From Sulfurimonadaceae bacterium (lineage in GTDB: Bacteria; Campylobacterota; Campylobacteria; Campylobacterales; Sulfurimonadaceae): a stretch of 64,000 nucleotides of DNA. Location of the stretch: the NCBI GenBank assembly GCA_028683835.1, contig JAQUHB010000012.1, positions 1 through 64,000 of the forward strand, in the 5' to 3' direction. This document shows, one piece after another, positions 11,401 to 13,760 of the stretch. Each line of letters opens with the position of its first letter. The first letter of the stretch is position 1. A program made the translations under genes and the position numbers. The notes beneath the pieces are model-generated. The model had not been told where the DNA came from and ran no database searches. It worked only from the letters and a program-made list of their open reading frames with translations.

Positions 11401-11977
11401 CAATCGTCTTGTGATCTTTGATGAGTCCGAAGGGTTTACATGTAAGGATGACACCAACTGTGAAGAGTTTCATGATGCCTATCCAAGGGCCATTGAAGAG
11501 TTTACCTTTCCACGTCAAAGACGCAAACCTCACCGTGCGCTGAGCGACTTTTTTCATCATGACAGACATGATCTCATCGCCCTTACCTGTGTGAGTGCGG
11601 GAGCAAAACTAAGCGATACAGAACGCAAAATCTATGAAGAGGGAAAATACACGGAGTATTACCAGTTTCACGGTCTTGGCGTCGAACTCGCAGAAGCACT
11701 GGCGGAAATGGTGCATAAGCAGATACGTCTTGATCTTGGCATCGCAGAGAATGAAGGCAATACTATCAACGATGTACAGATGAACAAATACCAAGGTGCG
11801 CGTTACTCTTTTGGCTATGCGGCGTGTCCGGACTTGGAACTCAACCGTCCACTTTTTAATCTCCTAAAACCTGAAGAGTTTGGAATCGAACTGAGCGAGA
11901 CATTCCAGATACATCCTGAACAATCAACATCGGCACTGGTCGTTTACCATCCAAACGCAACGTATTACAATGTTTAA
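8489..11977 (+). CDS. metH: Cobalamin-dependent methionine synthase
   Basis: A 1162-residue four-module enzyme that methylates homocysteine with methyl-tetrahydrofolate via cobalamin. In order: homocysteine domain (1 to about 310), with zinc ligands in GFNCGTGP (about 227) and GGCCGTTP (about 291); pterin domain (about 340-600, LLVGERSNATGS then NSVNLEDG); helical cap and B12 domain with the His-on motif GDVHDVGKN near residue 731; and a C-terminal SAM-binding reactivation domain (about 900-1162, with R-x-S-x-G-Y-x-A-C-P-D-L). It is full length for E. coli-type MetH. By eye the gene is more GC-rich than its neighbours. Only a weak ribosome site (AAAGA) is seen. A TTACATGTAA copy lies inside it at 11436. 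Confidence 0.97.
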   Translation: MSIKQQILETIKKRPLIIDGAMGTQLQQRDKDIPLEAWEGLEGCNELLNVTAVDVMESIFSAYLTAGADLITTNTFGSFSWVLDEYGIGHRAYELSRAGAAIVRKKCDEFSTPEQPRYVLGSIGPGTKLPSLGHIHYDEMFKGYKECALGLIDGGTDIFLLETCQDPLQIKVALHACDAASKERGIEIPIMVSVTIELAGTMLIGTDATTIAAILEPFDILSLGFNCGTGPDQVKKHVKTLSEVWGKPISIHANAGLPQNRGGYTFYPMGPDEFAEKQEEFLEFDGVSFLGGCCGTTPQHIRALTNRVTSKTPKLPSGSQPNSLASLFNTTPLMQNPAPLLVGERSNATGSKAFRELLLDENYEGTLSVGQQQVRAGAHVLDVSVGFAGRDETKDMNKVMSLYAQKLSLPLMPDSTQTAALEEALKLIGGKPIINSVNLEDGIEKFDAICTLAKKFGASLVCLTIDEIGMAKTLERKIEIAERIYELATQKHGINPEDLVFDLLTFTLGSGDEEYFDAGINTIEAIRELRTRHPEVGAILGLSNISFGLHKDARPYLNSMFLHHCIEAGLTSVIINVQHIIPLNKISDEEQKICDDLIFNRQPEGQALFTFIDHFSNKEAVDSEAEDEAYNALSTEEKIAKLLMDGDKERMIPLVEEARHTIAPEKIVNEILIDAMKVVGELFGSGKMQLPFVLQSAETMKKTVDHLQPYLPKIEKKTDTTLILGTVKGDVHDVGKNLVDIILSNNGFKVVNLGIKVELDKFVETLKECNADAIGMSGLLVKSTQVMKDNLEALKSAGIKVPILLGGAALTRAFIDDFCRPFYDGPIFYCKDAFDGVTAMSRIEAGNPDTNLHPQAPVIERTEEKEVIIPPFSELTMPDRDVKIPTPPFWGRREMKLTPAQIEKAFDWVNHKILFKSRWGYSSKGMTKEAYEKQLNEVVWPAYEKLKAQFLDEKLFEPTIIYGYWPCRSDDNRLVIFDESEGFTCKDDTNCEEFHDAYPRAIEEFTFPRQRRKPHRALSDFFHHDRHDLIALTCVSAGAKLSDTERKIYEEGKYTEYYQFHGLGVELAEALAEMVHKQIRLDLGIAENEGNTINDVQMNKYQGARYSFGYAACPDLELNRPLFNLLKPEEFGIELSETFQIHPEQSTSALVVYHPNATYYNV

Positions 11978-12431: not shown

Positions 12432-13154
12432 TTAAATATTTTTTAAGTAATTATCAACTATTGTCCATGTTGTTAAAAAAAGTATAGCTCGATCATCTGA
12501 AGTCATATCTTTTGGCTCCCCATGTCGTAGGGGATCAGCTGCAATTTTGAGCTTCTTAATGTCCTCAAAACTGGTATTAGAAATTTCTCTAAATTTCTTC
12601 CATTGATCTGATTTATTGCCTTTTGAAATATTTTGTATAACTGAACAATGATGTTTTAATGATTCTATCGCTCTGTAACAATAAAAGCCTGTATCATCTG
12701 CATGTTTCATCGCAGATACAAGATCATTTAAACAACGATTAATATATTTACCAATCTCACCAGATATTTTTTCTCTTAAATAAGGAATCTCTATCTCTAA
12801 ATTCACATCTTTGCCTCGTTCTTCAAGGCAAGGTATTTCAATGCCAAATACATAATCAATTTGTTTCCTTCTATTAATTACACGTGTGATTTCTAAATCG
12901 TATGCATACCCTTTTAAATAGCCTAACATATTTAGGTGACTTTTTACAAGATTATTTACAATATTTTTTAAATCAAATATATTCCAATGTAAACTGCTAT
13001 CTATCCAAACAGCAAGTTGATTATTTATAATATTAACTTTCATTCGCATAGGTTCTAGAATGTCTTTTGTTGAGAAATCCATTTCAAATGAAAATGTCAG
13101 TTGGGCTCTTTCTGGTAAAATAATACCTTGAAAATAAAATGATTCGTCTTGCAT
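12432..13154 (-). CDS. Orphan protein of unknown function, possible HEPN-like C-terminus
   Basis: About 240 residues, AT-rich, and not a family I recognise. The first half (to about 130) looks beta-rich and polar. The second half is helical, with YCYRAIESLKHHCSVIQ and near the end a DPLRHGEPKDM stretch followed by a hydrophobic helix. A beta-rich front with a helical R/H-containing back is the general layout of some HEPN-type proteins, but the classical RxxxxH motif is not clear. I start at 13154 because AAGGT lies 5 bases before that ATG; an ATG four codons earlier (13166) has no ribosome site. The convergent neighbour is the metH-linked gene. Its position beside a repeat element suggests accessory DNA. 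Confidence 0.65.
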   Translation of the reverse strand: MQDESFYFQGIILPERAQLTFSFEMDFSTKDILEPMRMKVNIINNQLAVWIDSSLHWNIFDLKNIVNNLVKSHLNMLGYLKGYAYDLEITRVINRRKQIDYVFGIEIPCLEERGKDVNLEIEIPYLREKISGEIGKYINRCLNDLVSAMKHADDTGFYCYRAIESLKHHCSVIQNISKGNKSDQWKKFREISNTSFEDIKKLKIAADPLRHGEPKDMTSDDRAILFLTTWTIVDNYLKNI

Positions 13155-13250
13155 TAGCACCTTCATAATTGAACTATTTATTCAATAACTATTGTATCAA
13201 ACTTTGTCAGAAATGGATAATTAGATTAGTACTATAAATGTTTTATTATG

Positions 13251-13632
13251 TACTTTTTTCTTCGCAAAAAAGTACCAAAAAGCTCTTGCAACGGCTTCGA
13301 GCTTGCCTTTGGCAAGTTCCCAAGAAACTACTCACAAATCCCTAAAAATTCAAAACTCACTACGTTCAAACAGTTGAATTTTCTTAACGAGATTTATAAG
13401 TAGTTTCTTGGCTCTGCAGGTGTTGCAACTGACGGATAAACTTTTGCGGCGTTCTCTTTGTGTCACTTTGGATTTTAGCTTTTTTGACCGAGTGGAGTCG
13501 TAAAGAAAATGCAACTGTTTGAGGCGTAGCCGAGTTTTGCATTTTCAGACGCAGCGACCGAAACAAAGCATGAAGAAATCCATCTTGCTGACACGAGCTT
13601 TTTTGCATACTTTTTTTGCGGAAAAAAAAGTA
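13251..13632. repeat. 382-bp non-coding element with terminal and nested inverted repeats
   Basis: This fills most of the gene-free stretch 13167-13760. The left end is a hairpin TACTTTTTT-cttcgc-AAAAAAGTA (13251-13274) followed by AAAAAGCTC. The right end is the inverted counterpart, GAGC plus a T-run, then a hairpin at 13607-13633 around GCGG. Together they make imperfect terminal inverted repeats of about 38 bp. Inside, 13319-13352 pairs with 13373-13411 (both carry CCAAGAAACTACT or its complement), and 13344-13382 is an inverted copy of 13507-13545. No credible gene, transposase or SD-preceded frame is seen. It resembles a MITE-like or structured-RNA element. The flanks 13167-13250 and 13633-13760 hold nothing else I recognise except a TTACATGTAA copy at 13671. 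Confidence 0.7.
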
Positions 13633-13760
13633 TGAGAGAGGTCTTGTAAAAAACTGACGGAAGAAAAGGCTTACATGTAAAGGTTTTATTTACTTCAACT
13701 TACGTCAAAAGAAAATTTCTTACGGAGCATATTCCCAAACAGAACTTGAAAACGAGAAGA

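Follow-up and report, generated by a model that had tools for sequence, protein, structure and literature searches.

The window analysed here is a stretch of 64,000 nucleotides of a Sulfurimonadaceae contig. Its gene-free section at 13250–13634 (385 bp) is one copy of a scattered palindrome family, and lies between a 244-aa ORF (12432–13166, minus strand), which has no Pfam match, and a small gene beside gltX. As the initial annotation had stated, there is no gene inside: the element holds no ORF of at least 80 aa, and promoter-like and terminator-like matches within it are at chance level only.

Two units of ~150 nt, A and B, lie in inverted orientation to each other between two AT-rich terminal hairpins (Table 1). 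The terminal inverted repeats and hairpins described at first sight are present, with arms (13251–13271 and 13612–13632) that are 90% complementary and a continuation that is weaker (74%). Inner inverted repeats join 13320–13340 to 13391–13411 (90%) and 13366–13390 to 13498–13522 (92%). Two further inverted repeats (13319–13352 with 13373–13411, and 13344–13382 with 13507–13545) had been described as nested; both exist, but they are competing pairings of one plan, the first being the long arm of unit A, whilst the second results from the relation of unit B to unit A, of which it is a diverged inverted copy. Folded as single-stranded DNA, the 382 nt reach −67.3 kcal/mol (z = −5.2), and none of 100 shuffles folds as well. 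Of the earlier proposal of one elaborate cruciform or RNA, the elaborate fold stands, although its form is that of an inverted dimer and a DNA structure is favoured over RNA.

Table 1. Features of the element and its immediate surroundings (positions in the window)
Feature	Position	Strand	Basis
Left terminal hairpin, GTACTTTTTT-CTTCGC-AAAAAAGTAC, then CAAAAAGCTC	13250..13275	.	sequence
Unit A, three-way-junction palindrome (P1, P1b, P2, P3, P4)	13278..13431	+	covariance model R1, 163 bits, E 2e-44 (this unit is among the R1 training sequences); covariation in 39 units
Core hairpin of A, CTAAAAA-stem-AACTC-loop-TTCAAACA-stem-TTTTCTTAACG	13342..13389	+	cross-phylum pattern
Spacer between units A and B	13432..13456	.	
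Unit B, diverged version of A in inverted orientation, lacking hairpin P2 and closed by GTGTCAC/GCTGACAC	13457..13602	-	R1 match, E 5e-10
Core hairpin of B	13499..13548	-	
Right terminal hairpin, CATACTTTTTTT-GCGGA-AAAAAAAGTATG	13606..13634	.	sequence
Palindrome TTACATGTAA, adjoining the element; separate genome-wide motif	13671..13680	.	

Covariation and the fold of the unit

Aligned full copies have both terminal hairpins and two long arms in common, and the two sides of a hairpin stem change together among them (GAGCTTGCC/GGCAAGTTC, GAGCCTAAC/GTTAGGTTC and GAGCTCGCC/GGCGAGTTC). A modular make-up is seen in shorter copies, which consist of the ~154-nt unit A alone or with inverted copies. 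Covariation, which the initial annotation had proposed to look for, is strong. For 39 aligned A-units from several genera, a five-helix structure was drawn from the covarying columns; 82.4% of its cells are paired, compared with 62.2% after shuffling, and two-sided changes occur in 356 cells, compared with 113, counts which are not to be read as probabilities because the 39 sequences are related. Sliding the pairing by 1–3 columns leaves only 34–46% of cells paired, a control that flatters the structure since the structure was taken from the same alignment. The R1 covariance model was trained with no B unit and still recognises unit B of the window.

Wobble cells are scarce in the A-units (19 G–T and 56 A–C, versus 137 and 197 in shuffles). 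A fold conserved by two-sided changes and with almost no G–T pairs argues for DNA rather than RNA, and points to the conserved fold acting as a DNA structure.

Copies and turnover

The element is not a one-off, as further copies were found both in the genome and in relatives. Three copies in the genome are full or nearly so, and there are fragments besides; the copy on contig C9 matches at 95% and that on contig C75, from which the outermost hairpins are absent, at 86%. Related sequence occurs in 23 of 100 relatives, with the best matches in the same genus, and the covariance model returns 4–14 units per element-bearing genome (0–14 across the six genomes scanned). Short ORFs, read from the sequence only, cross several copies, in line with the remark in the initial annotation that similar intergenic sequences yield spurious predicted proteins in other Proteobacteria; the element family may explain a class of such intergenic ORFs.

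At the gltX site the element is present in G000, G001, G003 and G007, and directly beside gltX there is none in G004, G005 and G006. In G002 the site retains a single hairpin, fused from one terminal hairpin's left arm and the other's right arm; recombination between the two terminal hairpins would be expected to leave this product. The gltX-site elements of G000 and G001 are 92–93% identical, compared with 76–78% for the flanking genes; the two G000 copies at gltX and purL–purH are 95.6% identical to each other, but the purL–purH copies of G000 and G004 are 83.3% identical, so that different sites of one genome are more alike here than one site in different species. Exchange, conversion or re-insertion would each explain these values, and strong constraint or gene conversion could alternatively account for the high identity at orthologous sites. 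Turnover at orthologous sites within the genus of the window is established. For transposition there the evidence is indirect, consisting of copies that are more alike than their flanking genes and of the single fused hairpin in G002. Inheritance is probably also vertical in part, since several copies have the same location in more than one species. The copies of this genus end in hairpins; inspection by eye showed no target duplication at them and the analysis came upon no clean empty site, so that transposition in it is something we infer.

Target duplications, another proposed line of enquiry, were found in Bacteroidota copies only. Alkalitalea saponilacus has six core-bearing copies, each exactly 314 bp long, with the terminal inverted repeat (TIR) CAYTRKTGTCCGG and flanking 9-bp direct repeats (four perfect, two imperfect), which is the signature of a DDE transposase. 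These insertions show that the Bacteroidota version has transposed. A search with the Alkalitalea TIR pattern gave no autonomous partner, and no transposase at unpaired ends.

The 82 copies for which neighbouring genes were compared lie between convergent genes in 38 cases, divergent genes in 8 and tandem genes in 36. In the genus of the window the genes next to the copies are variable accessory genes, including defence or toxin–antitoxin genes, and the neighbouring ORFs include no recurrent gene family. As a separate observation, copies from L018, L036, L048, L052, L053 and G031 contain palindromes that are interrupted, at the centre or close to it, by smaller palindromic modules (around CCCAAGGGCACTTCCTTTGGG and GCGAAGCGCTCCCGTAGGGATGTTTCC); TTACA-TGTAA is among the palindromes interrupted in this way.

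The core hairpin across phyla

At the tip of the unit lies a 48-nt core hairpin, which we expressed as a pattern (CTAAAAA, stem, AACTC, small variable hairpin, TCARACA, stem, TTTTYTTNACG) and scanned against named genomes, matching at least 120 stretches. The isolates among the matches listed include Bacillota (Clostridium bowmanii, Anaerococcus lactolyticus, Peptoniphilus harei), Bacteroidota (Alkalitalea saponilacus, Natronoflexus pectinivorans, Sphingobacterium paucimobilis) and Campylobacterota (Arcobacter vandammei). The core is found in isolates of at least three phyla and in others through MAGs; the Thermotogaceae, Marinimicrobiota and Deltaproteobacteria cores come from draft or MAG records only, for which misbinning is possible. 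Its distribution in Campylobacterota is patchy (14 of 397 genomes; the reversed control pattern has 0 matches in the same 397). A search for the core in phages gave none, a scan of IMG/VR with the core pattern gave no match, and the plasmid search gave one Sulfurovum record. The view of the element as widespread but poorly described is borne out by this spread, and by the finding that the element matches no Rfam model and that a literature search by sequence returned no published description.

The stems, which the search pattern leaves free, are paired in 579 of 610 cells, none of them G–T, and the base after the pattern, likewise left free, is G in 118 of 122 distinct cores. At four stem positions these 122 cores have 464 Watson–Crick, 0 G–T and 16 A–C cells, where shuffling expects 57 G–T cells (p 5e-5, kinship among cores being ignored). 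Since A–C on the pattern strand is G–T on the other, this hints that it is the other strand which folds; that strand, complementary to the search pattern, reads C-GTNAAR-AAAA..TTTT-TA-G.

In Lachnospiraceae (L155, L162, L175, L218, L246 and L252) the core lies inside long inverted arms of 30–70 bp, whose outer sequence varies among copies yet is complementary within each copy; for six copies, compared over 50–75 nt, own-arm complementarity is 0.94 versus a cross-copy similarity of 0.70.

Relation to known repeats and proposed mode of movement

Dispersed extragenic palindromes are a kind of element already known. Like REP/BIME sequences, the present family comprises extragenic palindromes, forms inverted dimers (A/B), has conserved unpaired bases beside the stem and avoids promoter regions (38 convergent versus 8 divergent locations). 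GTAG and CGTC REP units are 20–40 bp long and usually exceed 100 copies per genome, GTAG REPs have an associated RAYT gene, and CGTC repeats, which are found in several phyla, have no known transposase (Di Nocera et al. 2013, PMC3733652), the last two properties being shared by our element. By contrast, its flank motif is CGTNAAR and the unpaired GTAG or CGTC tag is absent, its 48-nt core sits in a ~154-nt three-way junction, its copies are few (0–14 units per genome in six genomes) and no associated RAYT gene was found; it thus departs from these REPs in tag, size, copy number and transposase. The TIR repeats of TIRYT/RAYT genes are likewise dispersed long inverted repeats, some self-complementary (PMC3733652), but no Y1 transposase gene flanked by the present element was found. 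We rejected a RAYT/Y1 partner, since Y1 transposases are not present in step with the element and its copies flank no Y1 gene. What is unusual is the retention of a single core hairpin across phyla within otherwise unrelated palindromes.

We consider it probable that the element belongs to the dispersed palindromic repeats of REP/BIME/MITE type, being non-autonomous, moved in trans and lost by hairpin recombination. Two inverted copies of one structured unit sit between two terminal hairpins, each unit, as a DNA strand, folding into a three-way junction tipped by the core hairpin, and arm complementarity would be maintained by DNA-level processes. An enzyme supplied in trans would copy or exchange the element between intergenic sites, and loss would proceed through recombination between its own two terminal hairpins. 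The search for a partner transposase found none; the Campylobacterota version, too, would be moved by a trans-acting enzyme, and the core hairpin is presumably what some protein recognises. More speculatively, the core, on the strand that tolerates wobble pairs, may be the recognition site of a novel enzyme or host factor through which non-autonomous palindromes spread across several bacterial phyla, which would place the family as a third superfamily beside the GTAG and CGTC REPs; we regard this as a tentative possibility.

MITEs are short and non-coding, with inverted ends. The element is the same in these respects, and a reading as the MITE of a DDE transposon, with the core as functionless internal baggage, draws on the Alkalitalea copies with their TIR and 9-bp duplications, and on a 213-bp repeat in the same genome that has the same TIR and for which no core is reported. 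TIR and target duplication are, however, found together in this one distant lineage only, the genus of the window having inverted terminal hairpins, and no autonomous partner was found in Alkalitalea. The core is common to several phyla while the ends differ, and its retention in such differing surroundings is left unexplained by this reading, which we consider doubtful.

Another reading has a Y1/RAYT-type HUH transposase recognise the folded core or the terminal hairpins and move the element, which is then REP-like, in single-stranded form. It would agree with the conserved unpaired flanks of the hairpins, the inverted dimers, the location between convergent genes and the strand asymmetry of the wobble mismatches. 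A bias towards one replication strand, seen in Campylobacterota at 27 of 39 loci (p 0.02) and in G031 for at least 12 of 14 units, would also agree with it, although Clostridium has no such bias and Lachnospiraceae the opposite one. The complete genome G004 carries many copies and no Y1 match, in relatives the Y1 genes have no copy of the element on their flanks, the single RAYT gene beside a copy has its own repeat and the tag is neither GTAG nor CGTC; we judge an HUH mechanism unlikely.

A structured RNA, small RNA or 3′ UTR element would account for the elaborate conserved fold and for wobble pairs being tolerated on one strand only, but is improbable given the near absence of G–U pairs, promoter matches no more frequent than by chance, the lack of a strand preference relative to neighbouring genes (20 to 16 among tandem copies) and of an Rfam match. 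A role as boundary of an integron-like gene cassette system merits very little credence: one gene in G007 is bracketed by two inverted A-units and several copies lie next to accessory genes (RloB/AAA, NACHT, AbiH, Mrr-helicase), but most copies are cargo-free, those of G031 lie between core genes, and in a comparison of defence-gene neighbourhoods, which established no enrichment, control sites also score.

The analysis defines, by a covariance model and a pattern that can be used in searches, a palindromic repeat family whose DNA fold is conserved; few REP-like repeats have been described from the phyla concerned. It also provides a test case for the spread of such repeats without a known transposase.

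Two observations concern other repeats. The RAYT-like gene of a Campylobacteraceae MAG (L166, 3419–3952) is accompanied by a different repeat family of its own (CTCGTTCCACATCTCC.. / ..GGAGATATGGAGCGAG). The palindrome adjoining the element, TTACATGTAA, occurs 11 times in the window (at 11436, 12379, 13671, 19324, 29704, 32022, 34001, 42541, 45864, 53493 and 55119; 0.09 expected), about half of the occurrences being inside ORFs, and 321 times genome-wide (reversed control, 1); relatives have up to 1061 copies, and many sister genera almost none. It looks like a clade-specific genome-wide motif and is perhaps a candidate DNA uptake sequence. At the yqeY–trpC locus (L012 180–1060, L051, L123 2240–3240 and L360) it bounds a small accessory gene that differs from species to species, and the locus looks like a cassette-exchange hotspot.
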